A stretch of 64,000 nucleotides of DNA from Prevotella sp. GTDB taxonomy: Bacteria; Bacteroidota; Bacteroidia; Bacteroidales; Bacteroidaceae. Made by a program: the position numbers and the translations under genes. Shown here in pieces: positions 20,330-55,687 of the stretch. The stretch is taken from the NCBI GenBank assembly GCA_017941345.1, contig JAGAWQ010000004.1, positions 49,439 through 113,438 on the forward strand. The letters are read 5' to 3'. The notes beneath the pieces were generated by a model. The model saw only the letters and a program-made list of their open reading frames with translations. It searched no databases and had not been told where the DNA came from. How positions within the stretch are numbered: position 1 is the first letter of the stretch; each line of letters opens with the position of its first letter.

Positions 20330-20334
20330 CACTG

Positions 20335-21618: not shown

Positions 21619-21623
21619 TGATG

Positions 21624-21631: not shown

Positions 21632-21759
21632 CGGGCTTTTGGGACTAAAAGCAAGAAAACGAGGAAAAGATTGCGGAACTTGTTGCGACAGGGAATGTGT
21701 TTTGCGACAAAGGATGACAAAAAGGGCTCGGGCTGTCGCAAAACGACGTAATGAAAAGG

Positions 21760-37991: not shown

Positions 37992-38012
37992 ACCTTTTGC
38001 TTGAAATTTGCT

Positions 38013-38084
38013 GCAAAGTTACGAAAAGTCGAGCACAAAACAAAGAAACTCGTTTCTTTTTTTGTCGAGACGCAGTAACTTCGC
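38013..38084. repeat. Palindromic promoter-bearing repeat, copy 2
   Basis: GCAAAGTTAC at the left end pairs with GTAACTTCGC at the right, with further pairing of AAAGTCGAG and TCGAGACG and of GAAAC and GTTTC near the centre. The minus-strand TAACTTTG (38014-38021) is the -7 box of the barrel gene. It is over 80 percent identical by eye to the reverse complement of 48470-48540. Confidence 0.8.
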
Positions 38085-38166
38085 TATCTTTGATAGCAGA
38101 GTTGAAAAAAATCCTTATACTCCCAAAGATATTTTTAAAGAAATTCGCATCTAACTATTATTAGGT

Positions 38167-38198
38167 ATTGCGTACATTATTAATTTTTTGTACCTTTG
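38167..38198 (+). promoter_or_regulatory. Promoter of the first TonB operon
   Basis: ATTG at 38167-38170, a 20-bp spacer and TACCTTTG at 38191-38198, 30 bp before the ATG. Confidence 0.65.
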
Positions 38199-38228
38199 CA
38201 CCGCTTTTTATTGTAATTTAATCAAAGT

Positions 38229-40988
38229 ATGAGATTGATACAACGTATCTTATTGCTCCTCGTGTTGGGTACTCCGCTACTTGCCTTCGGACAGAAGACG
38301 AGTCACTCTATTTATCTGACTGTCAAGGATAAAGACACCAAGGAGTCTATCATTATGGCCACCGTCCAGTTACAACCTACTGGCATCATTGCAGTAACTG
38401 ATGCTGACGGACGGGCCACATTCCAGAACATAGAAAACGGCAATTACATGCTGCAAGTTTCGTACGTAGGCTATGAGTCGAAGAACATCAGCATCAAGCT
38501 CAACAAGAACCTGCAATTAACCTGTCAGCTGTCACCCTCGACATTGGCTTTACAGGAAGTCAACATTGTGGCTCGTCAGAATGTAGCTGGAAAGTCCACG
38601 AGCAGCATCATCGGGCGACAGGCCATCGACCACCTGCAGGCCACCTCGCTGGCTGACATCATGCAACTGGTGCCAGGGGGGGTGATGGGCAACCAGGACC
38701 TGACATCGAGCACAGGCACGCGCCTGCAAATCCGCTCTGCCTCGCAGAATGCCTTTAACAGCACCGCAGCCTTTGGCTCGCCTATCATCGTGGATGGCGT
38801 ACCCATGTCGAACAATGGTAATCTGACGCAGGGTGATTTCACAAATACCGCACTGACGGGTACGGATATGCGTAACATCTCAGCTGACGATATCGAAGAG
38901 GTGGAGGTGATTCGCGGTATACCCTCCGCAGAATATGGCGACCTGACCAGTGGCATGGTGGTGGTTCACTCCAAAATCGGTGTTACCCCTTGGCAACTGA
39001 AAGGCAAGGTCAATCCGGCCATGATGAACTATTCGTTGGGCAAAGGACTACGCATGGACAAACATGGAGTACTGAACTTCAATGTCGACTATGCTCAGGC
39101 ATGGGGCGACCCCCGCAAGAAGACCAACTCCTTCGACCGTTATAACTTCTCATTGGGCTATGGCCTTGACATCAATAAGAAGTGGCATACGGACACGAAG
39201 ATTCGTTACAACTACGCCAAGTCGTGGTCAGGACAAGACCCTGATGCCATTCAAGACGGTACGGAGGGCAAGGACAAGAACGCCACCTTCAGCCTGACAC
39301 ACAATGGTAAGATACGCCTTGACAAGCTCTTCTCACGTAACATCTCCTATACCATCGGACTGAGTCTGACACAGAGCGACTCGAAGAGCACGGCCTTTGC
39401 AGGTGGTGGTTTGACACCTATCTATACCGCCAGGACCACAGGCTACAACCGTCTGGCATTTGTCAACACCTCATACCAAGCCACTGGCTACACGGAGAGT
39501 CGTCCTGGCAATCTCTATTTCAAGCTGAACAACAGCTTCTACCTGAAGAGCGGGAAGACCAACCAGAACTTCAAGATGGGTGTGGACTACAAATACGATT
39601 GGAACAACGGTAAGGGTTATTACAACGAGAACGAGGATCTGCCCCTGCGTCCCAATGGCAGCAGCAGACCACGTCCTTTCAGCGATGTGCCAGGACTGCA
39701 TCAGGTGGCTGCCTATCTGGAAGACAACTTCAGCTGGCAGTACTGGGGCAAGCGCAGTCTGCGCCTGCAGGTGGGCGCACGCTTTACCGCCATGCAGCCC
39801 TTCGACGATGTGCGCACCTTCTCGCTGTCACCCCGCATGAACCTGAGTCTGGAACTGACCGACTGGCTGAGTCTGAGAGGTGGTTTCGGTATCAACTCGA
39901 AGACACCTGGCCTGAACTACCTTTATCCTGACAAGCACTACTCCGACTATGCCTCAGCCAACTACATGCCACAGGACAATCCTGCCGGACAGTTGTATTA
40001 TGGCTACACACACGTCTATGAGGTGGAATTCACCCGCGACCTGAAGAATGTGAACACCACAAAGATAGAGGCTGGTGTGGACATCAAACTGCCTGGTCAT
40101 CGCAAGCTGAGCATCATCGCCTATCAGGACCGTACCACTAATGGCTTTGCCAGTATGACGGAGTATATGACCTACCCCGTCAACTACTACAACCAGCAGC
40201 AGGGTCTCATCATAACCCCAGGACAGGCTACTCAGGTGGATGTCGACCATCCGGCCTTCACCAAGACCATGTGGAGCACTACAGGCCGCATTGGCAATAC
40301 AGATGTGAACATCAACAGAGGTGTGGAGTTCGACTTCGACCTGGGCAAAATCACCCATCTACAGACCAGTGTCTATTTCTCAGGAGCCTGGCAGGAGACC
40401 AAGGGCTACTCGAAGGCACTGCACTATGGCAATCCCACGCCAATGCCTACGAGCTATTCGAGCTACAACACCACGCCCATCAAGATGGTATGGCCCTCTG
40501 AGGGAGAAACCACACGCTACCGCCAGTTTATCAACACCCTGCGACTGGTGACCCACATCCCACAGCTGCGCATGGTGGCTTCGCTGACAGGACAGGTCAT
40601 CTGGCATAACTCTTCCAAGAGCGTCACAGAGCATACCCGTCCCATCGGATGGATTACCACTGACCTCGTACAACATGATATTACAGACGACATGCTGAGT
40701 GGATATATTGGCGAGGACGGCAAGTACTACGGCTCAGCTCCTGACGGCATCGCCAGCTTCGAGATAGCCAAGCAGACGGGCAGCAGTGATACCTACACGA
40801 AGAATCCTATCACCTGGAACATCTCAGCCCGACTGACCAAGGAGTTTGGCAAATTTGCCGGTCTCTCGTTCTATGCCAACAACGTGATGTTCTACGAACC
40901 CTTCCTCACCTCGAGCAGCAGCTCATCGCTCACGCAGCGCAATACGGGTACGTTCTCCTTTGGTGTCGAACTGTTTCTTAATCTTTGA
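38229..40988 (+). CDS. TonB-dependent outer-membrane receptor, operon 1
   Basis: 919 residues. Signal peptide (MRLIQRILLLLVLGTPLLAFG), a CarboxypepD_reg-like domain at about 26-110 (YLTVKDKDTKESIIMATVQL...DADGRATFQNI), a plug domain at about 115-240 (LADIMQLVPGGV, SPIIVDGVPMSNN, EEVEVIRGIPSAEYGDLTSG), then a 22-strand barrel ending in TFSFGVELFLNL. It imports a ligand through the outer membrane using TonB-ExbBD energy. No SusD partner follows; instead a DUF4876-like lipoprotein gene starts 26 bp on, so it is not a standard glycan (PUL) pair. The receptor at 48.5 kb is a paralogue. Confidence 0.93.
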   Translation: MRLIQRILLLLVLGTPLLAFGQKTSHSIYLTVKDKDTKESIIMATVQLQPTGIIAVTDADGRATFQNIENGNYMLQVSYVGYESKNISIKLNKNLQLTCQLSPSTLALQEVNIVARQNVAGKSTSSIIGRQAIDHLQATSLADIMQLVPGGVMGNQDLTSSTGTRLQIRSASQNAFNSTAAFGSPIIVDGVPMSNNGNLTQGDFTNTALTGTDMRNISADDIEEVEVIRGIPSAEYGDLTSGMVVVHSKIGVTPWQLKGKVNPAMMNYSLGKGLRMDKHGVLNFNVDYAQAWGDPRKKTNSFDRYNFSLGYGLDINKKWHTDTKIRYNYAKSWSGQDPDAIQDGTEGKDKNATFSLTHNGKIRLDKLFSRNISYTIGLSLTQSDSKSTAFAGGGLTPIYTARTTGYNRLAFVNTSYQATGYTESRPGNLYFKLNNSFYLKSGKTNQNFKMGVDYKYDWNNGKGYYNENEDLPLRPNGSSRPRPFSDVPGLHQVAAYLEDNFSWQYWGKRSLRLQVGARFTAMQPFDDVRTFSLSPRMNLSLELTDWLSLRGGFGINSKTPGLNYLYPDKHYSDYASANYMPQDNPAGQLYYGYTHVYEVEFTRDLKNVNTTKIEAGVDIKLPGHRKLSIIAYQDRTTNGFASMTEYMTYPVNYYNQQQGLIITPGQATQVDVDHPAFTKTMWSTTGRIGNTDVNINRGVEFDFDLGKITHLQTSVYFSGAWQETKGYSKALHYGNPTPMPTSYSSYNTTPIKMVWPSEGETTRYRQFINTLRLVTHIPQLRMVASLTGQVIWHNSSKSVTEHTRPIGWITTDLVQHDITDDMLSGYIGEDGKYYGSAPDGIASFEIAKQTGSSDTYTKNPITWNISARLTKEFGKFAGLSFYANNVMFYEPFLTSSSSSSLTQRNTGTFSFGVELFLNL

Positions 40989-41014
40989 TATTTGAAGTTT
41001 GATGTTTGAAGTTT

Positions 41015-42226
41015 ATGATTAGAAAAATATATTATTTACTATTTTCCGCAGCAATGACCAGCTGTATAGATTATAACGATGCTACAGAGGCCATCAGCAT
41101 TACCATCCAGGTGACCAGTCCTGAGGACTATCCCAAGGCGAACGTGGAAGGACATGTCATCACCCTCTCTGGCTCACGTACCTTTACAGCTACCACTGAT
41201 GCACAGGGCATTGCCCGCTTCGAGAATATCGTACCTGACGTATACAGTGCCTCAGCCTCATGGAAGGTGAGTGCTGAAGAGTATGCTGAGACCACAGGGA
41301 AGACGGTAGAGAACAAGAGCTATACCATTTCAGGCAGTCTGACAGCCCAGACCTTTGGGGCCTCTACCACAACACCTGTCGCTATGACGACCACCATCTC
41401 TCAAGACCAGTCCGTGCTGATTGCCAAGGTGTATTATCAGGGCAACAAGGACGACAACTACAAGAACTACGTCTATGCCAAGTACATCGAACTCTACAAC
41501 AACAGCGACGAGGAATACGATGTGGCTGGACTGTACATCGCCATTCTAGAGTCTTCATCGCCCACTTCGCACTATCCCCTACAGTATCTTACTGATACCA
41601 TCGTGGCCAAGCAGGTGTTCCAGATTCCTGCCAACGAGCCCTTTAAGGTGGCTCCTGGCGGAACTGTATTGATAGCGAACAGTGCTGTTGACCATACCAC
41701 CAAGGGGTCCTCGAATGACCCCAACCTGCTGGATGCTGACTTCGAGGCGAAAGACAAGAACAGCACGAGACCCCACGAAAACAACCCCGACGTGCCTGAG
41801 CTCACCCAGCTTTTCTCGTTTACCAATATCACCTATATGAATCTGATTCAGGGTGGTCCTTGCGGTATTGCCATCTTCGAGACTATAGAGGACGTGACAG
41901 ACGACTGGGTAAAAAACAATCTCACCTATGCGTATGGTACTCAAAAAGGTACACAGTACATGAAGATACCCACCCGCTTTATCATCGATGCGGTGGATAT
42001 CCTGAAATACAACGGAGAGACGGGTGTTGATGTCAACACCAAGCGTCTTTTCGACTACCTGGATGCCGGCTATGCCTTCACCGAGGCCAAGTCGGGCTAC
42101 GACGGACGACTGGTTCGCCGCAAGGTAGCCTCGACCACTGCTGACGGACGCAAGATACTACAAGACACTAACAACTCAGCCAACGATTTTGAATCGACTG
42201 ACCAATTAACACCACGCGTATACTAA
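41015..42226 (+). CDS. DUF4876-like surface lipoprotein, operon 1 (first)
   Basis: From the ATG at 41015 the protein has 403 residues with a lipoprotein signal (MIRKIYYLLFSAAMTSC, lipobox MTSC). An N-terminal beta domain is followed by a lamin-tail-like domain (KYIELYNNSDEEYDVAGLYIAI) and a conserved region GG.CGIAIFE...IIDAVDIL...LDAGYAFTE. It ends with LQDTNNSANDFES, a motif shared by all four family members in the window. I match it to DUF4876 from memory. It probably sits on the cell surface over the receptor, as SusD does for SusC. It overlaps the next gene by one base. Confidence 0.8.
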   Translation: MIRKIYYLLFSAAMTSCIDYNDATEAISITIQVTSPEDYPKANVEGHVITLSGSRTFTATTDAQGIARFENIVPDVYSASASWKVSAEEYAETTGKTVENKSYTISGSLTAQTFGASTTTPVAMTTTISQDQSVLIAKVYYQGNKDDNYKNYVYAKYIELYNNSDEEYDVAGLYIAILESSSPTSHYPLQYLTDTIVAKQVFQIPANEPFKVAPGGTVLIANSAVDHTTKGSSNDPNLLDADFEAKDKNSTRPHENNPDVPELTQLFSFTNITYMNLIQGGPCGIAIFETIEDVTDDWVKNNLTYAYGTQKGTQYMKIPTRFIIDAVDILKYNGETGVDVNTKRLFDYLDAGYAFTEAKSGYDGRLVRRKVASTTADGRKILQDTNNSANDFESTDQLTPRVY

Positions 42227-43773
42227 TGAAGAAGATATATTTATTATTTGTTATTTGTTCCTTGTCATTGAGCCACGCAGTGGCGCAAGTGGATTTGAAC
42301 AGCTACCAGCTGGCTGATGAGTCACAGGTATGGCGACTGACGGGTAATGCTGCCGCTCTGTCACTCGACCCAGAGACATGCGACTCATCAGCTAACCGAG
42401 GCTTGGCTTATTTCGACCTCATGCATCGCAGTGGCGACTACCGCCGTGTGCAGGAGGGAGGTCAGATGAACCAGCTGAGTTTCCATGCTGAACGCTATCA
42501 AAAGATAGGCAAGTATCTCTATGGCTATGGCTCTTTCGACTTCGACATGGGACGTACCAAAGACCGTGCCTGGAGCGATGTGCTTCGCTCGTACAACAGC
42601 AACCCCTATATCTCAGGCTCTTCCGTTCCAGGGAGGTACGACCACCAGAACTTCAAGCTGGTGGCAAAACTGTCAACGGTCGCGCTGGGCCACTTCACCT
42701 ATGGTGCCACCTTATTATATAAGGTAGGCGACCTAAGTCGTTTGCGCGACCCTCGTTCCCGCATCAATCTGGCTGAGTATAAACTGGCGCCATCTGTCAC
42801 CTACTCTGCTGGTCAGCACACCCTCGGACTGGCGCTGCACTACGACCGTCGCAAAGAGAAGCTACCCAATATGACCACCGTACAGACCGACCCCAACCTC
42901 TCCTACTACGTGATGACAGGACTGGAGAATGCCACAGGGACCATTGGTGGCTACAACGGCTATCAGCGCGAGTATGTGAACCATGAGTTCGGTGCTGAGT
43001 TGGATTATGGCTTCAAGGGCAGCCAGTGGAGAAGCGTCAACGCGCTGTCGCTGCGCATGGGTCGCGAATACGTCTATGGACAGTATAAATACGAGCCAGG
43101 CAACTATCGCACCATCAACTACGGACTGGCCTCGCGCAACCGTATCCGCCAGGACGGACTGCTCCACAGCATCGACCTGCTGGTAAACTACGAAACGGGC
43201 AGTGCTGACGAATATAAGTCGGAACGTGTCTCGACAACCGATTCCGAGACGGGTATTGTCTCTGTGGAGTGGCGTAAGATTTTGGAATATAAGAAGCGCT
43301 ACCAGCTGAAGAAGTGGGATGCCGACCTGCACTACCGACTGTCATGGACCAAGGATGAAGCCGTCAATAGCTATTGCGGACTGCAATATACCCTGCAGAG
43401 CGTCAGCAATAAATACCTGCTCTACACCTCTGAGCTGAAATACAGCGCCTCGAATATCCTGGCTGAGGGTGGATATGGGTTCCTCAATCATCACTTATGG
43501 CTCGAAGGTTCCTTGGGCTACCGCATTCGCCACAAGGCTGACATCGCCCTCTACGATGTCACTACCGACTATGCACAGTCCGTACTCCTGCCCGATATGC
43601 CTTACTACGAGGCCAACTACTGGCAGGGCCGTCTGGCTGTCACCTATCAGTTCCCCCTAACCATCAAGGGCTACACCGCCCAGTGGTTCGTCAAAGCCTA
43701 TGGCAGCTACCTCAAGACCAACAACAGTCTTGATGCCTCGACCATTGGACTTAGTTTTGGACTATTCAACTAA
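42226..43773 (+). CDS. DUF6850-like outer-membrane beta-barrel protein, operon 1
   Basis: 515 residues with a signal peptide (MKKIYLLFVICSLSLSHAVAQ). The opening YQLADESQVWRLTGNAAALS recurs in the paralogue at 52.8 kb (YQFVKQQDVWLTGRNNAALT). Many amphipathic strands follow (KYLYGYGSFDFDMG, HFTYGATLLYKVGDLS, KYSASNILAEGGYGF), ending in STIGLSFGLFN with an aromatic C-terminus as expected for a barrel. I match it to DUF6850 from memory. Its role is unknown; constant pairing with a receptor and a DUF4876 lipoprotein suggests a second component of the outer-membrane complex. Confidence 0.78.
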   Translation: MKKIYLLFVICSLSLSHAVAQVDLNSYQLADESQVWRLTGNAAALSLDPETCDSSANRGLAYFDLMHRSGDYRRVQEGGQMNQLSFHAERYQKIGKYLYGYGSFDFDMGRTKDRAWSDVLRSYNSNPYISGSSVPGRYDHQNFKLVAKLSTVALGHFTYGATLLYKVGDLSRLRDPRSRINLAEYKLAPSVTYSAGQHTLGLALHYDRRKEKLPNMTTVQTDPNLSYYVMTGLENATGTIGGYNGYQREYVNHEFGAELDYGFKGSQWRSVNALSLRMGREYVYGQYKYEPGNYRTINYGLASRNRIRQDGLLHSIDLLVNYETGSADEYKSERVSTTDSETGIVSVEWRKILEYKKRYQLKKWDADLHYRLSWTKDEAVNSYCGLQYTLQSVSNKYLLYTSELKYSASNILAEGGYGFLNHHLWLEGSLGYRIRHKADIALYDVTTDYAQSVLLPDMPYYEANYWQGRLAVTYQFPLTIKGYTAQWFVKAYGSYLKTNNSLDASTIGLSFGLFN

Positions 43774-43790
43774 ACAAATACAAAATACGT

Positions 43791-44552
43791 ATGAAAAAGA
43801 TTTTATTATTAGCAGTGATTCTTCACTCTACACTCTTCACTCTTCACGCAATGGCAACTGACACGCTGACCGTCCGCATCAAGGGGATGCGCTGCGAGGA
43901 GTGTGCCCACAAAGTAAAAACCGTCCTACGCAAGGATGCAGGCGTCTCTGGCATACAGTTTAACTTGGAGCGTCGCACAGCCACCATCGCCTACGATGCC
44001 ACCAAGACGAGTGCTGACTCCATCAATGCCCATCTGGCAGCAACCGGACGCTATAAGAGCTCACCCTACAGCCCCACCGACGTTATCCTTCGCGGATATG
44101 GCCTGCGCATCGACGACATGCACTGCAAGAAGTGCTCCGACCGCATCATGGACCGTCTCTCCAAGATGGAGGGCATCGACTCCATGGCTCCCCATCTGGA
44201 CAAGCACTATATGTTCATCCGCTATGATGCCAATCGCACCGACAAGGCTGCCATCCGTGCGCTTATCAACAAGATAGGCTACACCCCCGTCAACTACTAC
44301 ACCAGCGACAAGATAGCATGGGCCTACTACAATATCCCTGCTGAGGCCGCTACTCAGGATAATATCGATGCCGTGCTGGCCATCGACGGTGTCGAGGATG
44401 TCAACGCCAATGCCCGTCGTAAGTCGCTGGCTGTCACCTATTTCTCCAAGGAGATCAGCGCTGACAAGCTCCTGGAGGAGATTCAGAAGGCAGGCATTCA
44501 GGCCGTTGTGCCCAAGCCCCACGAATGCAGTGAGAACGAGAAGAAACAGTAA
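43791..44552 (+). CDS. Exported protein with heavy-metal-associated domains
   Basis: 253 residues with a signal peptide (MKKILLLAVILHSTLFTLHA). Residues about 25-90 are an HMA domain with GMRCEECAHKV (CxxC). Residues about 98-165 form a second with DMHCKKCSDRI (CxxC). The third repeat (about 172-240) keeps the fold pattern but has lost the cysteines (YYNIPAEAATQDNIDAVL). HMA domains bind Cu(I), Zn or similar ions. Being exported and inside a TonB-receptor operon, it probably handles a metal in the periplasm. This is the only clue to the system's ligand. Confidence 0.85.
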   Translation: MKKILLLAVILHSTLFTLHAMATDTLTVRIKGMRCEECAHKVKTVLRKDAGVSGIQFNLERRTATIAYDATKTSADSINAHLAATGRYKSSPYSPTDVILRGYGLRIDDMHCKKCSDRIMDRLSKMEGIDSMAPHLDKHYMFIRYDANRTDKAAIRALINKIGYTPVNYYTSDKIAWAYYNIPAEAATQDNIDAVLAIDGVEDVNANARRKSLAVTYFSKEISADKLLEEIQKAGIQAVVPKPHECSENEKKQ

Positions 44553-44592
44553 CACTTTTATTATAATCATTCATTTAAAAACATTACAAACA

Positions 44593-45666
44593 ATGAAAAA
44601 ATTCAATTATCTGATGATGGCTGCCGCCATGACCCTTGGTCTGGCCAGCTGCAGTCAGGAAACCAAGCCTGGCACTCCTGTAGAAGACAACGCCAATGTT
44701 GAAGGCAACCTGATTATCAAGGAAATCAACGTTGGCGGTGGCTACAAAAAAGATGCTGGAGGAAATTACAACAATGTCAAGGCTGTCGTTCTCTACAATA
44801 ACAGCAGTAAAGCTGTTACGTACAGCAATCTGGCCATTGCCAATGTTGCTCCGGGCAATGCACATGCAACCAATGCCAACTACGACGAGAACGGAAAATT
44901 GTATTATGAAGATAAAGGTTGGACACCAGCTTGGAGCCAGATTTGGTATATCCCATCAATAACAGTACAGCCATTCTCTGATGCTGTTGTATCTATCAAT
45001 GGCGCTATCGACCACACCACGATTTCTTCGGAAGCCTTCAGTCTAGCTAATGAGGAATACTATGCCATGTATGACCCAGAGGCAGGTTTTACCAATGCCA
45101 ACTTTTATCCCACCCCATACGAGGGTATTCCCACTTCACACTATTGGAAAGTCATCAACTTGTTCACCAGTACTGCTTGGCCCGGAAGCATGATGTCACC
45201 CTGCTATATTCTCTTCCAGTTCCCTGCTGATGTTGAACCCAAGACCTATTGCAATAAGGAAGGAGAAAACATCTATTACGATGGCGGAAAGCCAGACAGA
45301 ATCGGTTCAAATATCAACGTCATGATTCCTAACGAATGGATTATCGATGGTGTTGAATTCTATCGTATTGGATATGTTGATGACAGCAAGAAGCGCCTTT
45401 CGTCATCCATCGATGCCGGCTATGGTCTGTACAACAGCAACAAGCAGTACTCTGCTTATCGTAACATCGACGAGAAGGCTACCGTCAACTTTGGCGACAA
45501 CATCAACAAGCTGGTTTACAACTATGCTGACGGTGTAGAGGGTACTACCGACCCCAGTGGCATCGACGCTGCTGCTTCTGCCAAGAATGGTGCTAAGATT
45601 ATCTATCAGGACACCAACAACTCTACTGCTGACTTCCACCTCCGCAAGGGTTGGTCGCTGAAGTAA
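44593..45666 (+). CDS. DUF4876-like surface lipoprotein, operon 1 (second)
   Basis: From the ATG at 44593 the product has 357 residues with a lipoprotein signal (MKKFNYLMMAAAMTLGLASC). It lacks the N-terminal beta domain of its relatives and starts directly with the core (LIIKEINVGGGYKKDAGG, VVLYNNSSKAVTYSNLAIA). Conserved points are PNEWIIDGVEFYR, SIDAGYGLYN and the end YQDTNNSTADFHLRKGWSLK. It is closest to the third copy at 51.5 kb (shared FYPTP, IPTSHYWK/IPSSHYLK and DPSGIDA). It is last in the operon before a strong terminator. Confidence 0.8.
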   Translation: MKKFNYLMMAAAMTLGLASCSQETKPGTPVEDNANVEGNLIIKEINVGGGYKKDAGGNYNNVKAVVLYNNSSKAVTYSNLAIANVAPGNAHATNANYDENGKLYYEDKGWTPAWSQIWYIPSITVQPFSDAVVSINGAIDHTTISSEAFSLANEEYYAMYDPEAGFTNANFYPTPYEGIPTSHYWKVINLFTSTAWPGSMMSPCYILFQFPADVEPKTYCNKEGENIYYDGGKPDRIGSNINVMIPNEWIIDGVEFYRIGYVDDSKKRLSSSIDAGYGLYNSNKQYSAYRNIDEKATVNFGDNINKLVYNYADGVEGTTDPSGIDAAASAKNGAKIIYQDTNNSTADFHLRKGWSLK

Positions 45667-45684
45667 AACATCTCTTCTCCAAAC

Positions 45685-45716
45685 AAAAAGGGTTCCAATC
45701 ATTCGGAACCCTTTTT
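45685..45716 (+). terminator. Terminator of the first TonB operon
   Basis: Perfect 12-bp stem AAAAAGGGTTCC / GGAACCCTTTTT with an 8-nt loop, 18 bp past the last gene. Confidence 0.9.
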
Positions 45717-45835
45717 CTGATGCCTATCGTTTACATATCGATTCTACCATTCCATTCAGAGCCATGCACATATCCCGTGTCAGTAGTATGCGTTCATTCT
45801 GGTGTTCCCAAGGGGCGAGCAAAAGCAATCGTCCT

Positions 45836-46699
45836 TCAGCACAAGCCTGAAATAACAAGCTGTTCGCCCTTGGAGATGGCTGGTGAGACCAGCACAGCTC
45901 CCTTGCGCGCTTTTTCCAAGAGTTGCTGCTTCTGCTGTTCTATCTCGTTGTCATAGAGATGGCGCGACAGTTGTACCTGTACCAATTCCGGCTGTTCCAA
46001 CAAGAAACGGTTGCCTATAGCGGCATACTCCTGCCCTGCGATAGTCAATCCAAAACGCACCTTGAAAAAATCAGGATGAAGGCGACGGATGGCGAGCCGC
46101 CGTGGGTTGTCTTGGATATAGGCTTTCCACTTATTTAAAGTACTGTAATTATGCAGGATAAGGTCATTATAGCCCTCTTCCCATAAGCCAAAGCCACCTT
46201 TTGGCTGCGATAAAATCGCAGCGAACGAAAGAAGGACATCACTCCCTTCCCTCCCAAGCGGCACTCCCCCTTCCCTGGCAAGTGGCGATTCCATCGCCGC
46301 CTCCCCCAATATCAACTTCAGCTTCCTATTACACCCCAGTTTAAACCCTTTAATTACCTGCCCTAAATGGAAAGGCACATCTTCCCTCACATACAATATA
46401 CCATGAAAATGATCCGGCATGACCTAACCGGCAATGACACCAACTTGTGGATAATAATGGCTAATGCCTGCCCATTCATCTGCTACCGCCTGCCCCATTT
46501 CTGAAAGTTCTATATGAGCATCCTCATGAGCAGAAACGCCGTACACCAACCTGCCAAGCACAGGACACCTGTCACGTACCGCAAGCGTAATCATATAGAA
46601 CCGCTGAGCATGGTAATCGTGCATACTGCTGCGACGCTTCATTGACGGTTTTTTCCCGCCAGCGAAGCGTCGCTTGAGTTCAAACTTTTTCTCGTCCAT
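45836..46699 (-). pseudogene. RAYT-type (REP-associated tyrosine) transposase with an in-frame amber stop
   Basis: One frame of 288 codons starts at 46699 and is interrupted by TAG at 46421-46423. Before it: RSSMHDYHAQRFYMITLAVRDRCPVLG and ISHYYPQVGVIAG. After it: VMPDHFHGILYV, the HUH metal-binding motif of Y1 transposases, then FKLGCNRKLK, LWEEGYNDLILHNYSTLNKWKAYIQDNPRR with the catalytic tyrosine region. A single base change would restore it. The gene begins one base after the stop of the DUF4876-like gene upstream, so it probably arrived as a coupled downstream gene. A proline/arginine-rich insert (PLAREGGVPLGREG) follows LGEAAMES. Confidence 0.8.
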
Positions 46700-48325
46700 T
46701 TATTTAACGAGAATCTTCTTGCCGTTCTGGATATATATGCCCTTTGTGGGATGTTCCACTCGCTGGCCGTTGAGGTTGTAGAAGACAGTAGGTGTATCCT
46801 TTTTGACAACCACTCGTTCGTCAATGCCAGCAGCGATTTTCTCTGGTGTCGTTCCGTGCCAAGTAATGAAACTCAGTTCTCCTATCGAAGCAGCACCGTT
46901 GGAAGCATAGATCTTTTCAAGGTTCTTTTCCGACAATGAAATGTACAAACGATCGCCATCGGAGAAAGTGGCCTTGTTGTATTTTCCCTCAACGGCATCT
47001 ACACGCTTGAATCCAACATTCCCTTTTACATTACTGAACTTATATATAACGTTATTAACTCTACTGCCTGTTAATTGCAACTCATTATCGTCACACCAAC
47101 TCGTGCAGGAAGAACGTGACTTCATGACACCTTGCGAATCAGACAGTTTCAGTGTATAGGTGCCGGGGGCTGCAATAGCAATCCACGGACCCTTAATCAA
47201 TAGAATGCTATCAGCAGGGTATTCACCATATAACAAGTCGGTGGTTGATTCATGGTTGCTGGCATTGACATGAGTGAACACCATACCCTTGGGGCCACAG
47301 AAAGGCTTGGTAGGATTAATGGGCAGATAGCCACTTTCAGGAATGGTGATAGTAATCTCTGTCAGTCCAACGGGACTCTCACTATAGCTACGGATGCTCA
47401 AATCGGTTGTCACTTCAAAGTCGTTACTGGAATTGTTGGTATCCCACAGCACTATTCGCTGATTGCTTGTGACGAAAGCCGTCTTGCGGACAACAGCTTC
47501 GCCACCGTTTCCGCCTGCATAGTTAGTGGCAACATAACCAGCATCATACGAGTCCGGAAGTCGTTTCTGGCTGGCATCTGGATTAGTCTTAGCAGAATGC
47601 TCTACAATGTCAACAGCATCAATAGTCTTAAAGGCTGGCACAAACTTGAATAGATGGCCATCAGTTCTTCCTCCTGAATAGCCTGTTGGACACTTGTCCA
47701 AATTGGTATCAGCGGCTAATAACACCACACAAAACGGGCCTGGCGACTGCCATTGGATATAGGTACTATTATCATTATAAGAGAACACCTGTATCAACTC
47801 AGGTACTGCATCGTTATGATTGTCTTTATAGGTAGACAGTTGGCTTTTCACCTCAAAGTCTGCCTCCGAAAGGTCTGGTGCTTTAGAGGCTACAGTAGTA
47901 TGATTTAAAGCACTATTGCAAACGACAAGACTCTTGCCTGGTTCAAGAGTATATGTCTTGTCTGTCGGAATCTGGAATATCTGCTTCAAGGCAATACTAT
48001 CCTTATGAGCAGTTTGCATATTGGCTGCCGTCCATGGATTTGGATATGTAGTACTACTCGTTGCACCCGTATTGTCAGCCAATCCAATATAAATGCCTGT
48101 AATGTCCAGTTCCTTGTCTGAATTATTGTAGAGTTCAATGTAATTAGCAAGAATAAACGATTTTGCAGCATCATTCACCATGTTGTTATAAAACACTTTG
48201 CTAATTACCAAGTCTCCACTTGTTGAGCCGCCACTTGGTTTCTCTGCTTTTGCATGAGCATCTGCCCCAAGCAACGACAAACCAACGATGAGTGCAAATG
48301 TTCTAATCGGAGTAAAAATCTTCAT
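46700..48325 (-). CDS. DUF4876-like secreted protein with C-terminal tail
   Basis: From the ATG at 48325 the protein has 541 residues. Signal peptide MKIFTPIRTFALIVGLSLLGADAHA, then the family core (YIELYNNSDKELDITGIYIGLA, IPTDKTYTLEPGKSLVVCNSALNHTT, AVDIVEHSAKTNPDASQKRLPDSYDAGY, LWDTNNSSNDFE). Unlike its relatives it has about 220 further residues and ends YNLNGQRVEHPTKGIYIQNGKKILVK, the same tail as the C10 protease at 7.3 kb. It lacks a lipobox. It stands alone on the minus strand between the two TonB operons, with TACCTTTG at 48355-48362. Confidence 0.75.
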   Translation of the reverse strand: MKIFTPIRTFALIVGLSLLGADAHAKAEKPSGGSTSGDLVISKVFYNNMVNDAAKSFILANYIELYNNSDKELDITGIYIGLADNTGATSSTTYPNPWTAANMQTAHKDSIALKQIFQIPTDKTYTLEPGKSLVVCNSALNHTTVASKAPDLSEADFEVKSQLSTYKDNHNDAVPELIQVFSYNDNSTYIQWQSPGPFCVVLLAADTNLDKCPTGYSGGRTDGHLFKFVPAFKTIDAVDIVEHSAKTNPDASQKRLPDSYDAGYVATNYAGGNGGEAVVRKTAFVTSNQRIVLWDTNNSSNDFEVTTDLSIRSYSESPVGLTEITITIPESGYLPINPTKPFCGPKGMVFTHVNASNHESTTDLLYGEYPADSILLIKGPWIAIAAPGTYTLKLSDSQGVMKSRSSCTSWCDDNELQLTGSRVNNVIYKFSNVKGNVGFKRVDAVEGKYNKATFSDGDRLYISLSEKNLEKIYASNGAASIGELSFITWHGTTPEKIAAGIDERVVVKKDTPTVFYNLNGQRVEHPTKGIYIQNGKKILVK

Positions 48326-48354
48326 AAGCAATTAATTAATGTACGTTTAGGGCG

Positions 48355-48362
48355 CAAAGGTA
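48355..48362 (-). promoter_or_regulatory. TACCTTTG -7 element for the DUF4876-like minus-strand gene
   Basis: Minus-strand match, 30 bp upstream of the ATG at 48325. Confidence 0.55.
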
Positions 48363-48370
48363 CAAAAAAA

Positions 48371-48400
48371 ATGAGAAATGAGAAATGAGAAATGAGAAAT
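48371..48400. repeat. 7-bp tandem repeat ATGAGAA, about four copies
   Basis: Simple repeat just upstream of the TACCTTTG box of the minus-strand DUF4876-like gene, overlapping where its -33 box should lie (about 48382-48386). A change in copy number would alter spacing. Confidence 0.7.
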
Positions 48401-48469
48401 TTTCTCGTGCATACCTACAAATAGGTATTGGTATTTCAAAGAATTATTCGTAATTTTGCGACCTGAGTC

Positions 48470-48540
48470 GCGAAGTTACTCCGTCTCGGCAAAAAAAGAA
48501 CAAGTTCTTTTGTTTTGCTCTCGACTTTTCGTAACTTTGC
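48470..48540. repeat. Palindromic promoter-bearing repeat, copy 3
   Basis: GCGAAGTTAC pairs with GTAACTTTGC; inside, CTCGGCAAAAAAAG and TTTTGCTCTCGA pair in part around GAACAAGTTC. It is the inverted counterpart of 38013-38084. The right arm holds TAACTTTG (48532-48539) with TTTG 19 bp upstream (48509-48512), a complete promoter for the second TonB operon. Confidence 0.8.
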
Positions 48541-48563
48541 AGCCGCTATTATAAATAAGGTGT

Positions 48564-51536
48564 ATGAAGAAACAACTATCGATACTATTGACGCTACTGC
48601 TCTTACTGCCAGTCGGCCTGATGGCCCAGACGGTGACTATGGCAGGACGGATTACCGACGAGCAGAGCGGAAAGCCCGTGGAGTTTGCCTCCATTCTGAT
48701 GAAGGAGAACGGATTCTGGGCCATCACTGACGCCAAGGGTGCTTTCAGCATCAAGAACGTGCCTGTGGGCAAGGCCACGCTGACCATCCAATGCCTGGGC
48801 TATGCCAAGCGCGACATCGTGCTGAACATTGCCAGGGACATGCCTCGACTGCGCTTTACCATGAAGCAGGAGAGCCTGAAACTGGACGAAGTAACGGTGA
48901 CGGCTAAGCGTAAGACGGACGAGTCGACCACGTCGTACACCATAGACCGCACGACGCTGGACAACCAGCAGCTACTAAATATTGGTGATATCACCACGCT
49001 GATGCCTGGTGGCAAGACCATCAATCCCACGCTGATGAACGACAACCGCATGGCGCTGCGCAGCGGCTCGTCGGAGAAAGGTAATGCCTCGTTTGGTACA
49101 GCCATCGAGGTAGACGGCATCCGCATGAACAACAATGGCGAAATGGGCGAGACGACGGGAGCCTCAACACGCACCATCAGCACGTCAAACATCGAGTCGG
49201 TGGAGGTGGTGACGGGTATCCCGTCAGTAGAATACGGCGACCTGTCGAATGGTGTCGTCAAGGTGAACACCCGCAAGGGTAAGTCACCCTTCATCATCGA
49301 AGGCAAAATCAACCAGCATACCTATCAGATAGCCGTCAACAAAGGCTTCGACCTGGGTGGCAGGAACGGTGTGCTGAATGCCTCGTTCGAGCGTGCCCGT
49401 TCAAACAGCAACATCGCGTCACCCTATACCGCCTATCAGCGTAACATCCTGTCGCTGAACTACATGAACATCTTCATGCAGAACACGACACCCCTGACGC
49501 TGAACGTGGGGCTGACGGGTAACATCGGAGGATACAACGCAGAGGCTGACCCAGACAACGAACTGGACGACTATACCAAGTCGCGCGACAATACCCTGCG
49601 TGCCAACTTCGACCTGAACTGGCTGTTGAACAAGAGCTGGATTACCAACCTGTCGCTGCGTGGGTCGCTGTCGTATGCTGACAAGCGCTACCAGAGCTAT
49701 GCCCACGCCAGCAGCGCCTCCACCCAGCCCTATATCCACACGTTGGAGGAAGGTTATTTCATAGCCACGCCCTACGATCAGAACCCCGATGCCAGCATCA
49801 TCCTTGGACCTACCGGCTACTGGCACGTCATGCAATACCAGGACTCCAAGCCTCTGAGCTACACCCTGCGCCTGAAGGCCGACTGGACGCATCGCTTCGG
49901 CAAGGTCATGAGCCGTCTGATGGCAGGTGCAGAGCTGACGGGCAGCAAGAACAACGGACGAGGCACCTATTACGAGGATATGCGCTATGCCCCGACTTGG
50001 CGCGAATACCGCTACGACGAGCTGCCTGCAATGAACAATGTGGCCCTGTATGCAGAGGAGAAAGTCAGCATCCCCACCAGTAAGCTGTCGACGCTGGAAC
50101 TGACAGCCGGTCTGCGCAATGACATCACGATGATTAGTGGCTCCGACTACGGAACGGTCAGCAGCCTGTCGCCTCGTTTCAACGGACGTTATATCTTCTG
50201 GCAGAACCGCAAGAAGCAACTCGTCAGCGACTTCATTGTTCATGCGGGATGGGGAAAGAGCGTTAAGCTGCCTTCGTTCCAAGTGCTCTATCCGTCGCCT
50301 GCCTATAGCGACCTGCTGGCATTCAGCACACCCAGCACCAGCAACAACACCTCGCTCTATGCCTATCATACCTATCCGTCGAAGGCTGTCTATAACCCAG
50401 ACCTGAAATGGCAGTCGACACACCAGACGGACATCGGTTTCGAGATGAACCTGAAAGGAACGCGCATCTTCGTGTCTGCCTTCCACCATCGCACATACAA
50501 CCCCTATATGGCTACCCATCTGTACACGCCGTTCAGCTATAAGTACACCCCACCCTCTTCGCTCGACGGAGTGAGCATCGACCTGGCTAACCGCACCTAC
50601 GGCATCAACCAGCAGACGGGGGTCGTCACCGTGAGTGATGCCACAGGGGCCCAGCAGCCTGTCAATCTGGCCTATAACACCCGCAAGACCTACCTGACCA
50701 ATGCCAAATACGTGAATGCTTCGCCTTTGGACCGCTACGGACTGGAATGGATAGTAGACTTCAAGCAAATCAAAGCCCTGCGCACCAGCATCCGACTGGA
50801 TGGCAACTACTACTATTACAAAGGCATCGACGATGTGCTGTTTGCCGACATTCCCACGTCAAACGCCACCATGTCGAATGGTGAGCTGTACCAGTATGTA
50901 GGCTACTATCGAGGCAGCAATGTCACCTCGGCAGGCACTATAGCTAACGCATCCGTTTCCAACGGTGCGCTGTCGAAGCAGCTGAACCTGAACACCACCA
51001 TCACCACACATATTCCCAAGTTACGACTCATCGTAGCACTGCGCCTGGAGTGCTCGCTATACAACTATCGTCGTTCGCTGAGCGAGTTTGAGGACGGTAC
51101 GCGTGGTATCGTGCTGGCCGACAAGAACGACTATACCGGCAAGCCCTACGACGGAAGCAGCGAGAACCAGTATGTAGCCATCTATCCGGAATACTACTCC
51201 ACATGGGACAATCCTGACGAGCGCATCCCCTTTGCTGAGAAGTTTCTCTGGGCCAAGGAGAACGACCCTACGCTGTATAACGACCTGACCAAACTGGTGG
51301 TACGCACCAACTATCCCTACGTGATGAACCCCAACCGCATCAGCAGCTACTACTCGGCTAACCTGAGCATCACCAAGGAGATAGGCGACCACGTCAGCTT
51401 GTCGTTCTATGCCAACAACTTCCTGAACAACATGAAGACGGTACACTCGTCGCAGACTGACCTGGAGACCTCGCTCTTCTCGAGCAGCTATATTCCCAGC
51501 TACTATTACGGACTCTCATTAAGACTGAAGTTATGA
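48564..51536 (+). CDS. TonB-dependent outer-membrane receptor, operon 2
   Basis: 990 residues. Signal peptide (MKKQLSILLTLLLLLPVGLMAQ), CarboxypepD_reg-like domain at about 25-105 (AGRITDEQSGKPVEFASILM), plug at about 110-240 (LNIGDITTLMPGGK, ESVEVVTGIPSVEYGDLSNG) and a long barrel ending YYYGLSLRLKL. It shares GIPSxEYGDLxxG and the overall plan with the receptor at 38.2 kb, so the operons arose by duplication and then diverged, presumably in ligand. It overlaps the next gene by 4 bp. Its promoter lies within a palindromic repeat. Confidence 0.93.
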   Translation: MKKQLSILLTLLLLLPVGLMAQTVTMAGRITDEQSGKPVEFASILMKENGFWAITDAKGAFSIKNVPVGKATLTIQCLGYAKRDIVLNIARDMPRLRFTMKQESLKLDEVTVTAKRKTDESTTSYTIDRTTLDNQQLLNIGDITTLMPGGKTINPTLMNDNRMALRSGSSEKGNASFGTAIEVDGIRMNNNGEMGETTGASTRTISTSNIESVEVVTGIPSVEYGDLSNGVVKVNTRKGKSPFIIEGKINQHTYQIAVNKGFDLGGRNGVLNASFERARSNSNIASPYTAYQRNILSLNYMNIFMQNTTPLTLNVGLTGNIGGYNAEADPDNELDDYTKSRDNTLRANFDLNWLLNKSWITNLSLRGSLSYADKRYQSYAHASSASTQPYIHTLEEGYFIATPYDQNPDASIILGPTGYWHVMQYQDSKPLSYTLRLKADWTHRFGKVMSRLMAGAELTGSKNNGRGTYYEDMRYAPTWREYRYDELPAMNNVALYAEEKVSIPTSKLSTLELTAGLRNDITMISGSDYGTVSSLSPRFNGRYIFWQNRKKQLVSDFIVHAGWGKSVKLPSFQVLYPSPAYSDLLAFSTPSTSNNTSLYAYHTYPSKAVYNPDLKWQSTHQTDIGFEMNLKGTRIFVSAFHHRTYNPYMATHLYTPFSYKYTPPSSLDGVSIDLANRTYGINQQTGVVTVSDATGAQQPVNLAYNTRKTYLTNAKYVNASPLDRYGLEWIVDFKQIKALRTSIRLDGNYYYYKGIDDVLFADIPTSNATMSNGELYQYVGYYRGSNVTSAGTIANASVSNGALSKQLNLNTTITTHIPKLRLIVALRLECSLYNYRRSLSEFEDGTRGIVLADKNDYTGKPYDGSSENQYVAIYPEYYSTWDNPDERIPFAEKFLWAKENDPTLYNDLTKLVVRTNYPYVMNPNRISSYYSANLSITKEIGDHVSLSFYANNFLNNMKTVHSSQTDLETSLFSSSYIPSYYYGLSLRLKL

Positions 51537-52861
51537 AAAAGATATTATCACTCCTATGTACCATCTGCCTGCTCATGGCCTGTAGCGACCATGTAGAGAC
51601 CACATCAGGCGACATCTCTCTATGCCAGGTGGTCATCAGCCTGTCAGGCATCTCCGACAGCAAGTCGGGATTTGAGGTACAGCTACGCAACACCCAGACC
51701 AACAGCATCTTTATCGAGCAGACGAACGCCGAGGGCGCCGCAACCTTCAGCGTCACACCTGGCATCTATGAAGCTACGGCTACGAAGAAAGAACTGGTGG
51801 GGCATAACGTCTATTACATCTACAACGGTACATCGGGCCAGATTGCCGTTCGCAAGGATATGTCGACCCCTGTCAGCATGGAGATGAAAAGGGCCAGAAC
51901 CAGCCAAGTTGTCATCAAGGAGCTCTATAATGGCGGATGCATGAAGGACGATGGCGTCACCTTCTTCCAATACGACAAGAGCTTTATCCTCTATAACAAT
52001 GGCGAACAGGCTGTGTCGCTGAGCAATCTGTGCATGGGTTTCTGTGCGCCAGCCAACGCCCATGCAACCAACAGGAACTACACTGACGACGGAAAGCTGA
52101 CCTACGAGGCTGAGGGGTTCATTCCCTGCTGGAATGGTGTGTGGTACTTCCCCAACACGCTGACCATCGAGCCTTACTCGCAGGTGGTGGTCAACATCTG
52201 TGGGGCCATTGACAATACGCAGACTGTCAGCGCATCCGTCAACTATGCCAATGCCGACTACTACTGTATGTACGACCCCGAGAGTGGCTATTACAACACC
52301 AACTACTATCCCACCCCGTCGGCACTCATCCCCAGCAGCCATTACCTGAAGGCAGTCATCATGGGACTGGGCAACGGATGGCCTTTCAGCATGTCGTCGC
52401 CTGCCTTCGTGGTGTTCCAGACTCCTGAGGGTACCAACCCTCGCGAATACTGCACCAACTCGGAAAACCTCTGGTATAGCGGTGGTGATGTCAAGCAGGT
52501 CAACGCCTGTGCCAAGGTACCCAACGAATGGATAGTCGATGCTATGGAAGTCTTCTCTTCTGACTATAAGGAGGGTAGCCTGAAGCGACTGACTGCCGAC
52601 ATCGATGCTGGCTATGTGTGGCTGACCAACAGACACGGACATACGCTCTATCGCAACGTAGACCAGCAGGCCACAGAGGCACTGGAGGAGAATGCGGGGA
52701 AACTGGTCTATAACTACCAGCTTGGTGTTGACGACAGCACCGACCCCAGTGGCATTGATGCTGAAGCCTCGCTCAAGAACGGAGCCCACATCATCTATCA
52801 GGACACCAACAATTCAACCAACGATTTTCACGAAAGACAAACATGCTCACTCAAAGAATAA
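51533..52861 (+). CDS. DUF4876-like surface lipoprotein, operon 2
   Basis: 442 residues with a lipoprotein signal (MKKILSLLCTICLLMAC, lipobox LMAC). An N-terminal beta domain of about 110 residues (CQVVISLSGISDSKSGFEVQL...AEGAATFSVTPGIYEA) is followed by the family core (VVIKELYNGGCMKDDG, FILYNNGEQAVSLSNL, PNEWIVDAMEVF, DIDAGYVWL, YQDTNNSTNDFHERQ). It starts inside the receptor gene (ATGA overlap) and overlaps the following barrel gene by 19 bp, so the three are translated as a unit. Confidence 0.8.
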   Translation: MKKILSLLCTICLLMACSDHVETTSGDISLCQVVISLSGISDSKSGFEVQLRNTQTNSIFIEQTNAEGAATFSVTPGIYEATATKKELVGHNVYYIYNGTSGQIAVRKDMSTPVSMEMKRARTSQVVIKELYNGGCMKDDGVTFFQYDKSFILYNNGEQAVSLSNLCMGFCAPANAHATNRNYTDDGKLTYEAEGFIPCWNGVWYFPNTLTIEPYSQVVVNICGAIDNTQTVSASVNYANADYYCMYDPESGYYNTNYYPTPSALIPSSHYLKAVIMGLGNGWPFSMSSPAFVVFQTPEGTNPREYCTNSENLWYSGGDVKQVNACAKVPNEWIVDAMEVFSSDYKEGSLKRLTADIDAGYVWLTNRHGHTLYRNVDQQATEALEENAGKLVYNYQLGVDDSTDPSGIDAEASLKNGAHIIYQDTNNSTNDFHERQTCSLKE

Positions 52862-54462
52862 CACCCATCCTCTTCACTGGTATGCTGACATTCCATGTCA
52901 GCCCAACCCCCGCACAGGACTCCCTGCTACTGCGCGACTACCAGTTTGTGAAGCAACAGGACGTATGGCTGACCGGACGCAACAACGCCGCCCTGACGCG
53001 ATTCGCCTCGCAGAACATCGTTGAGGCTGAAGCCGCGCTGACGAAAGGCAACGGCAGCTTTGTCGACTACTACCAGTCGTCGAACACCTTAGAGGCTGAT
53101 GTCCACATCGAGTCTATCTACCGCCTGAATGCCCGTACCGTATTCTTCGGTGCCATCCAATACAATAACTGGAGTGGCAAGGACATGACAGGCTCAGCCT
53201 TCATCGACCCCACACGCAAGCCTTTCAACCTGACAGAAGACTCGCTGACCAATGCAGGCAAGAAGCATCGCGACACCTATAAGCTGACAGGGGGCTTTGG
53301 CATTGACGTCTATCAGGGGCTCTCGTTAGGAGCCCGCATCGACTACACTTCTGCCAACTATGCGAAATACAAGGACTTACGCCATAAGAACAAGTTGATG
53401 GACCTGAGCGTGACGGCAGGTGTCTATGCTCCCGTTGCCGCCTGGCTGAACGTTGGAGCAGACTATAACTACCATCGTAACACGGAGAGTCTGGAATTTG
53501 CCACTTACGGAAAGAGCGAGAAGGTGTATAAGACGCTGATTGACTATGGTTCCTTCATAGGTGCCGTAGAACAGTTCGGCAACGAGGGATATACGGATAA
53601 GACGCGTGAGATGCCGCTGTTCGAGGATGCTCATGGCGGTGCTGTGCAGATAGAGGTGCTACCCATGTCAGGCCTCTCCGTCTTTGGTAGCCTTACCTTC
53701 AGTCATGGTACGGGCTACTATGGACGCCAGTCGCCCTACACCATTACCTATACCAACCACAAGCGCGACATCACCAAGGCCTCGCTCTCCCTCTCCCACA
53801 ACCTGTCCAGTACGTCGAAACATCGCCTCGACCTCACCTTCGCCCAGGAGAAACTGAACAACAAGGCTGAGACCTTCCGGGCACTCACCAATCAGAACGG
53901 AGCCACCTATTACGAATACTATGACCCCACAGAGACGGGCGACAAGCGTTGGAGAGACCTCAACATAGGCTACACCTTGCATTGGGGCATCAATGGCGAA
54001 CTGCCCACCTGGACCATTGCCGCCAACTACCATTGGATGCAACGTCAGCAGCAGGCCTACCTCTTCCCCTACTATCGTCAGCAACAGTTGAGCTACAATG
54101 CGATGGGCATCTGTTGCACACGTAACTTCCTGTGTCAGAAAGGGGTTTGGACTGTTAGCGTAAACGGAGGTTTCCAGAAAGGTAGCGGCGAACCCTTCGA
54201 GGATGGAACGTTTGTCAACCCCAGCAGCAAACAGACTGCTCCTGCTACGATGAATGCGTTCCTTTGGCAGGAATACCAGTACCTGACTGCCGCCCAATAC
54301 ACCATCGGACTGGCTGTCAAATATGCCTTCATCTTCCCGGGAACTCGCCTCAAGACTCACTGCAGAGCCTCCGTTGACCATCGCAAAGCCAACGAACTGT
54401 TCAGCGAATATGGAGGCAAGCGTCATACCACCTACGGCATAGCCATTGGATGTACATTCTAA
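52843..54462 (+). CDS. DUF6850-like outer-membrane beta-barrel protein, operon 2
   Basis: 539 residues. A short signal sequence (MLTQRITPILFTGMLTFHVSPTPAQ) is followed by the family opening YQFVKQQDVWLTGRNNAALT, then many barrel-like strands (FFGAIQYNNWSGKDM, LSLGARIDYTSANYAKY, LGINGEL-type turns), ending HTTYGIAIGCTF. It is a paralogue of the 42.2 kb barrel. The ATG lies 19 bp inside the lipoprotein gene; the next possible ATG (MLTFHVSP) would shorten the signal peptide. Confidence 0.78.
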   Translation: MLTQRITPILFTGMLTFHVSPTPAQDSLLLRDYQFVKQQDVWLTGRNNAALTRFASQNIVEAEAALTKGNGSFVDYYQSSNTLEADVHIESIYRLNARTVFFGAIQYNNWSGKDMTGSAFIDPTRKPFNLTEDSLTNAGKKHRDTYKLTGGFGIDVYQGLSLGARIDYTSANYAKYKDLRHKNKLMDLSVTAGVYAPVAAWLNVGADYNYHRNTESLEFATYGKSEKVYKTLIDYGSFIGAVEQFGNEGYTDKTREMPLFEDAHGGAVQIEVLPMSGLSVFGSLTFSHGTGYYGRQSPYTITYTNHKRDITKASLSLSHNLSSTSKHRLDLTFAQEKLNNKAETFRALTNQNGATYYEYYDPTETGDKRWRDLNIGYTLHWGINGELPTWTIAANYHWMQRQQQAYLFPYYRQQQLSYNAMGICCTRNFLCQKGVWTVSVNGGFQKGSGEPFEDGTFVNPSSKQTAPATMNAFLWQEYQYLTAAQYTIGLAVKYAFIFPGTRLKTHCRASVDHRKANELFSEYGGKRHTTYGIAIGCTF

Positions 54463-54493
54463 ACAACATCCCATGAGACTACGGCTCATTGCT

Positions 54494-54560
54494 GACGAGG
54501 TTACGGCTCACTACTGACGAGACGTAACCTCGTCGGCAGTGAGCCGTAACCTCGTCTTTT
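54494..54560. terminator. Large bidirectional hairpin between the second TonB operon and asd
   Basis: Perfect 19-bp arms GACGAGGTTACGGCTCACT / AGTGAGCCGTAACCTCGTC, with an inner GACGAG / CTCGTC pair, then TTTT. The left arm is preceded by a partial extra copy (ACGGCTCATTGCTGACGAG from 54481). Both flanking genes end here. Confidence 0.85.
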
Positions 54561-54571
54561 CTTACATTACA

Positions 54572-55585: not shown

Positions 55586-55620
55586 CTTACCTTTTTCTAA
55601 TATAGTTCGAATTTTGGCTG

Positions 55621-55628
55621 CAAAATTA
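55621..55628 (-). promoter_or_regulatory. TAATTTTG -7 element for asd
   Basis: Minus-strand match to TAnnTTTG, 36 bp upstream of the ATG at 55585. Confidence 0.5.
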
Positions 55629-55671
55629 CAAAAAATCCGCGTAATCCGTGTCATCCGTGCCAAAAAATTAG

Positions 55672-55679
55672 TACCTTTG
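55672..55679 (+). promoter_or_regulatory. TACCTTTG -7 element for the cation antiporter gene
   Basis: Ends only 8 bp before the ATG at 55688, so the mRNA should have almost no leader. Confidence 0.55.
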
Positions 55680-55687
55680 CAAACAAT

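Follow-up and report, generated by a model that had tools for sequence, protein, structure and literature searches.

Closest Described Systems

DUF4876 loci have been met in expression work on iron starvation, and two operons of this kind, each encoding a TonB-dependent receptor, a DUF4876 lipoprotein and a DUF6850 outer-membrane barrel, lie in the 64,000-nucleotide stretch of Prevotella sp. DNA analyzed here (hereafter the window; contig JAGAWQ010000004.1, positions 49,439 to 113,438). In Porphyromonas gingivalis and Bacteroides thetaiotaomicron, DUF4876 loci rank among the genes that respond to iron starvation with strong induction (PMC10434189). In the available part of that paper, iron depletion raises PG1019-22 20.8-214.5-fold in P. 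gingivalis, and BT3625-33 36.7-128-fold and BT1933-39 3.5-7.4-fold in B. thetaiotaomicron; PG1019-21, BT1938-39, and PIN17_RS07775-90 are grouped as an "outer membrane transport system locus." The three induced loci are like ours in combining a TonB receptor with DUF4876. Matched by annotation alone, BT3625-33 (DUF4857, ABC, PepSY) corresponds to an ABC/PepSY type and BT1933-39 to a HEAT type among the loci collected below. They differ in that a text search of the paper found no HMA or M16 gene named, and function was not studied in the text covered. Expression tables with a DUF4876 gene also contain HmuY in the accessible parts of two further papers (PMC10101095; PMC10470040), and published expression work, as far as its text was covered, has relatives of these loci responding to both iron and haemin. 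For the relatives, iron is thereby supported as the metal.

The system is most likely a variant of TonB-dependent metal uptake. We see about an even chance that each operon is a TonB-dependent metal-acquisition module, with protein- or peptide-bound metal as the most likely cargo and an exported HMA-domain protein as periplasmic acceptor. A first-pass annotation of the window had proposed an uncharacterised outer-membrane import system, with metal, a metal chelate or a metalloprotein as possible cargo. The first part is supported: our literature search, with most subscription papers outside its scope, found no functional study of a DUF4876/DUF6850 system and no mention of DUF6850. Metal as the likely cargo class is favored by the iron-starvation induction of relatives, the likeness of the receptor plug and the recurrent HMA, FMN_bind, PepSY, and 4Fe-4S partners. 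A dedicated PqqL-like M16 peptidase, together with other peptidases near the system, strengthens the idea of a metalloprotein.

Among systems of known function, Fus and PqqL-YddB are described as protease-associated import systems in the parts seen of PMC6793856 and PMC6071955; the word "Bacteroidetes" is absent from the main text of PMC6793856. The present system resembles them in its TonB receptor, in an M16 protein with a signal peptide that is linked to it in relatives and is nearest to PqqL, and in the iron regulation published for relatives. It differs in adding a DUF4876 lipoprotein and a second barrel, and the window lacks an M16 gene. Searched against PDB, the receptor profile has its best matches in the plug region, with ferric enterobactin receptors and Cir; the 15 matches at E 0.001 include other receptors, SusC-type N-terminal domains, and scaffoldins, and the receptors among them are ones other than FusA and YddB. 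Because kinship of the receptor to FusA/YddB is not established and the window has no peptidase, we do not class the system as Fus-type.

In SusC/SusD systems, too, a lipoprotein gene lies downstream of a receptor gene whose product has an N-terminal CarbopepD_reg_2 domain. However, no SusD family and no SusC model appeared among matches up to E 1 when the ten window proteins were scanned with Pfam and NCBIfam. The first-pass annotation was right to describe the system as lacking SusD, and a glycan SusCD system is ruled out on the same matches.

A Fixed Receptor-DUF4876-DUF6850 Unit

DUF6850 exceeded its cut-off in 70 and DUF4876 in 71 of 393 sampled Bacteroidales genomes, both being present in 69 and one family alone in 1 and 2. 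In a sample of 120 genomes of the genus, 62 have DUF6850. Among 296 Bacteroidota genomes each family was found in 29 and both in 27 (one alone in 2 and 2); by eye, the two share a contig at least once in all 27. For the neighborhoods we collected 140 loci plus 11 retrieved for their similarity to the type 1 DUF6850 of the window (operon 1), giving 154 non-identical DUF6850 genes. The first-pass annotation had suggested such a survey, which revealed a fixed unit: a receptor and DUF4876 lie within four genes, on the same strand, for 150 of the 154, and two of the four exceptions are cut by contig ends (L038, L071). The direct order receptor, DUF4876, DUF6850 occurs in 135. DUF4876 is immediately upstream of DUF6850 in 142, the two genes being 11 bases apart at the median and overlapping in 46. 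This linkage exceeds chance. The three proteins may form a complex. The DUF4876 lipoprotein, of a surface type, probably binds the cargo, and the roles that the first-pass annotation gave to it as a lid and to the DUF6850 barrel as an extra channel are putative.

The tight pairing could also mean that DUF6850 displays or assembles its DUF4876 lipoprotein, as Slam does for TbpB, and is not a cargo channel. This is the chief rival for one component of the system, and we regard it as doubtful. Near one-to-one occurrence and the 142 directly adjacent pairs fit it. Slam genes are often found beside their lipoproteins, and Bacteroidetes lack Slam, according to the text seen of PMC7857515. TbpA/TbpB with Slam is a parallel in that genes for a receptor, a surface-type lipoprotein, and one more barrel occur as a set, with metal as cargo. 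Yet we found no sequence kinship to that system. Slam has a 14-stranded barrel and an N-terminal TPR part, whereas the model of the type 1 DUF6850 protein (built on 18 sequences; predicted local distance difference test score, pLDDT, 76) has 18 long strands and no TPR part. DUF6850 is the only family in its Pfam matches, with no Slam family among them. A PDB search with the DUF6850 profile stayed at chance level (best E 0.79). The barrel's matches are porin-like. Moreover, PMC12578637, in the part seen, discusses a distinct BAM complex for the assembly of lipoproteins with barrels. How Bacteroidetes display surface lipoproteins is unsolved, as far as these two papers were covered (PMC7857515; PMC12578637), and DUF6850 becomes a candidate in that question.

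Peptidases and Other Linked Partners

Partners were tallied from five genes upstream to seven downstream of DUF6850, on either strand, with one representative per neighbor cluster scanned with Pfam. Near the 154 genes we found ABC/DUF4857 genes 35 times, HMA genes 33 times (over-represented through the 11 loci sought with the type 1 DUF6850), a lipoprotein or PepSY_TM_like_2 gene 30 times, M16 peptidases 21 times, and HEAT proteins with a weak C25 match 20 times; FMN_bind proteins and met-zincins followed with 8 each and 4Fe-4S membrane proteins with 7, while 34 had none. At least one of M16, C25-like/HEAT, and met-zincin is near 49 of the 154. The linkage of an M16 subfamily to the DUF6850 system is new here, and the linked peptidases suggest a protein or peptide as the ligand. 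Neighbor cluster 11, a further candidate for an M16 peptidase, was ruled out by its Pfam scan and is left out of the M16 counts.

The M16 protein of locus L016 has its best PDB matches in 9ldy ("Peptidase, M16 family") and PqqL (6ofs, E 1e-74), then in 6b03 and related entries ("Putative zinc protease," E 5e-33), presumably FusC. Among named proteins the system-linked M16 is nearest to PqqL. The HxxEH motif is present in 23/23 M16 rows, including one truncated copy. We searched the 120 genus genomes with the L016 protein, which was chosen because it is linked. The matches split into a subfamily of 44-100% identity (43 places, query included) and copies of 35-42% (107 among the matches listed). 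The former lie within 10 kb of DUF6850 in 34 of 43 places, with two more beside a triple-HMA gene, and the latter in 0 of the 107 matches listed. Thus, a special M16 paralogue travels with the system and the general one does not.

The chief rival to a module for protein- or peptide-bound metal is an importer of small metal chelates (a xenosiderophore, haem, or a copper chelate). In it the lipoprotein would serve as a ligand-binding cap, as in XusB/XusA or HmuY/HmuR, and the peptidases would process the system's own parts or be separate neighbors. We hold this to be possible, if on the doubtful side. The receptor plug is nearest to ferric-enterobactin receptors, 105 of the 154 loci lack all three peptidases in their neighborhood, and the PepSY and FMN_bind partners fit ferric reduction, all of which suits such an importer, as do the iron and haemin responses published for relatives. 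The special M16 paralogue argues against it, both by following the system (34/43 versus 0/107 among the matches listed) and by having as its nearest named structure PqqL, part of a protease-associated import system in the literature seen. An importer of peptide nutrients comparable to RagAB, whose metal-binding partners merely serve metallopeptidases, would account for the recurrent peptidases as well. We consider it improbable, given that no SusD/RagB-like partner was matched in the window, that relatives are strongly iron-regulated in the published data covered, and that redox partners are present.

Two further observations concern the peptidases. Downstream of DUF6850, HEAT proteins with the weak C25 match are encoded in tandem runs of two or three copies (a total of 30 genes in 19 loci, e.g., L020, L022, L024, L110). 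Genes for S46 dipeptidyl-peptidases are near the system in seven loci (e.g., L061, L064, L074, L084).

The Triple-HMA Protein

The first-pass annotation described the exported protein of operon 1 as having two CxxC HMA domains. Both CxxC motifs are present, at residues 35 and 112, but the structure model (pLDDT 88) contains three HMA-type folds, of which the third lacks CxxC and is followed by a C-terminal HxC. With CxxC in domains 1 and 2, the PF00403 match, and the fold, the protein is a candidate HMA metallochaperone. It is unlike CopZ, MerP, and other HMA metallochaperones in being exported, in having three folds in a row, the third without CxxC, and in a C-terminal HxC that tracks the domain-2 CxxC. 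The HxC is found in exactly the 21 of 25 distinct homologues (window included) that keep the domain-2 CxxC and is missing from the other 4, which have lost that CxxC; this would fit a single metal site formed by both motifs. Copper(I) is the usual HMA ligand. We suggest that the protein would act as a periplasmic acceptor of a soft metal and pass it on.

That this gene is an isolated accident was the outcome the first-pass annotation named as fatal to its proposal. Inside the genus it failed to materialize: in the genus sample, 22 of 29 homologues lie within 8 kb of DUF6850, either after DUF6850 or before the receptor. Single-HMA genes fall in a separate clade. The HMA gene is found in 30 of the 120 genus genomes, and outside the genus it is nearly absent, with 1 of 92 order-sample rows (L091), a 101-amino-acid protein on the other strand. 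This restriction would suit an accidental neighbor with, for example, a metal-resistance function, an explanation that the positions and the separate clade within the genus make highly improbable.

Proposed Function

In the mechanism we propose, the DUF4876 lipoprotein would catch a metal-bearing ligand, and the TonB-driven, siderophore-receptor-like barrel would import it, with the DUF6850 barrel tightly linked to the lipoprotein. Linked peptidases (the PqqL-like M16, the HEAT protein with weak C25, the met-zincin) may degrade the carrier at the surface or in the periplasm, where redox and metal-binding proteins would take the freed metal. In one lineage these would be PepSY and ABC/DUF4857 parts, in that of operon 1 FMN_bind and the triple-HMA protein, the last of which would accept a soft metal, possibly copper(I), and hand it on. 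Our analysis shows the linkage, the lineages, the folds, and the motifs, and published work the iron-starvation induction of relatives; the complex, the nature of the cargo, its inward direction, and the metal itself we infer.

A number of observations weigh against a module for protein- or peptide-bound metal. The 105 loci without a nearby peptidase have been mentioned, and the C25 (gingipain family) match of the HEAT protein stays below the Pfam cut-off (21.9 versus 23 bits). In the window no peptidase gene is at hand, and its assembly, 60% complete, has no M16 match at E 1e-60. The linked M16 and the triple HMA co-occur in 15 of the 61 genus genomes having DUF6850, with 17.7 expected and so no excess. 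The iron induction of relatives may not carry over to the HMA lineage, since the usual ligand of HMA domains is copper or zinc rather than iron. A Fur-box search upstream of the operons gave best scores about equal to those of shuffled sequence, with no enrichment.

A bolder version would have Bacteroidota at large practice metal piracy on foreign metalloproteins. Receptor, DUF4876, and a second barrel of their own would be served by a PqqL/FusC-like peptidase dedicated to the task, and Prevotella would add a triple-HMA acceptor for the freed metal, perhaps copper from plant or microbial copper proteins. We judge it unlikely. If true, it would be for Bacteroidota what the piracy of ferredoxin and transferrin is elsewhere, and it would have a third component in the outer membrane that is not known from either. 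With these peptidase and HMA links, what was an unnamed operon becomes a testable proposal on how common bacteria of the gut and mouth take up protein-bound metal.

Two Adjoining Old Lineages

Open reading frame (ORF) calling and Pfam returned the genes named in the first-pass annotation at the same coordinates and in the same families (Table 1), with both operons in the order receptor, DUF4876, DUF6850, a second DUF4876 protein in operon 1, and a fourth between the operons. Genes overlap by 1 base at 42226, 4 bases at 51533-51536, and 19 bases at 52843-52861. Calling the system duplicated was misleading. The type 1 and type 2 receptors are 26% identical, the two DUF6850 proteins have no BLAST match to each other at E 1e-3, and these are separated at several starred levels of a FastTree tree of the 154 proteins, in which several long branches, of the kind FastTree joins readily, were flagged. 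Copy 1 falls in a starred clade of 37 rows with HMA, met-zincin, or FMN_bind genes as recurrent partners. Copy 2 is in a starred clade of six, with the type 2 copies of L010, L012, L014, L016, and L017; several members of the larger group around it carry the ABC, PepSY, DUF4857 set. Judged by sequence divergence, the two operons are two old lineages that adjoin. A recent tandem duplication was ruled out by the receptor identity, the missing BLAST match, and the separate clades.

The same tandem is seen in five related loci; with the window, this covers every type 2 gene of the small clade, each in tandem with a type 1 operon. Five of the six came from the type 1 query, so type 2 operons that stand alone are under-represented, and 20 mostly type 2 loci of the genus are outside the set. 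Both kinds occur among the spare lipoproteins. The last one of operon 1 is type 2-like (48% identity to the type 2 DUF4876 lipoprotein), and the minus-strand one is type 1-like (39% to the type 1 lipoprotein). No DUF4857 match was found in the window's own genome (60% complete); therefore, the type 2 operon here seems to be without the inner-membrane set of its relatives.

Cys, His, and Met residues that the type 1 clade conserves but few other proteins share are scattered single residues and form no clear metal site. DUF6850 His253 is one (37/37 versus 8/117 others). In the receptor, His358 (window type 1 numbering) is present in 36/36 receptors of the type 1 clade and 0/109 others.

Gene Inventory and Surroundings

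Table 1. Features of the two operons and the interval between them (window positions).
Feature	Position	Strand	Evidence
TonB-dependent receptor, type 1, 919 aa	38229..40988	+	Plug 7e-13, barrel 2e-7, CarbopepD_reg_2 2e-17 (Pfam)
DUF4876 lipoprotein, type 1	41015..42226	+	PF16215 5e-32
DUF6850 outer-membrane barrel, type 1	42226..43773	+	PF21012 5e-86
Exported triple-HMA protein	43791..44552	+	PF00403 1e-30, three stretches
DUF4876 lipoprotein, type 2 kind, end of operon 1	44593..45666	+	PF16215 1e-17
Terminator-like hairpin with T run, after operon 1	45685..45723	+	Read from sequence
Long DUF4876 protein, type 1 kind	46700..48325	-	PF16215 7e-23
TonB-dependent receptor, type 2, 990 aa	48564..51536	+	Barrel 5e-18, Plug 7e-11
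DUF4876 lipoprotein, type 2	51533..52861	+	PF16215 1e-22
DUF6850 barrel, type 2	52843..54462	+	PF21012 2e-37

The four DUF4876 genes score 65-112 bits against a cut-off of 27.9 and the two DUF6850 genes 290 and 130 bits against 27. Both receptors exceed the cut-offs for plug and barrel and are thus TonB-dependent receptors; with NCBIfam the type 1 receptor matches weak siderophore-receptor models only. In the source assembly (60% complete), matches over the cut-offs number four for DUF4876 and two for DUF6850, and every one lies inside the window. Toward its N terminus the type 1 DUF4876 lipoprotein is carboxypeptidase-regulatory-like in one part and lamin-tail-like in another (the LTD match, at 3e-7, misses its cut-off), and it has a PDB relative in 4q1z (E 1.6e-13). 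In the minus-strand DUF4876 protein no lipobox was seen. Its C-terminal extension, similar to a sorting tail, was compared with the tails in L119, L132, and L135.

Rfam, searched over 36000-56000 with E up to 1, gave a single sub-threshold match, at the terminator-like hairpin, and therefore no argument for a riboswitch. Between the operons, at 45836-46699 on the minus strand, are two abutting ORFs of 194 and 91 amino acids with no Pfam match. They may be the two halves of an interrupted gene like those of REP-associated transposases. Farther upstream, G+C content is 40-46% at 12001-22000, as against about 50% around it. The low-G+C stretch (10838-22000) begins just past a tRNA-Phe gene (10838-10911) and is possibly an integrated element.

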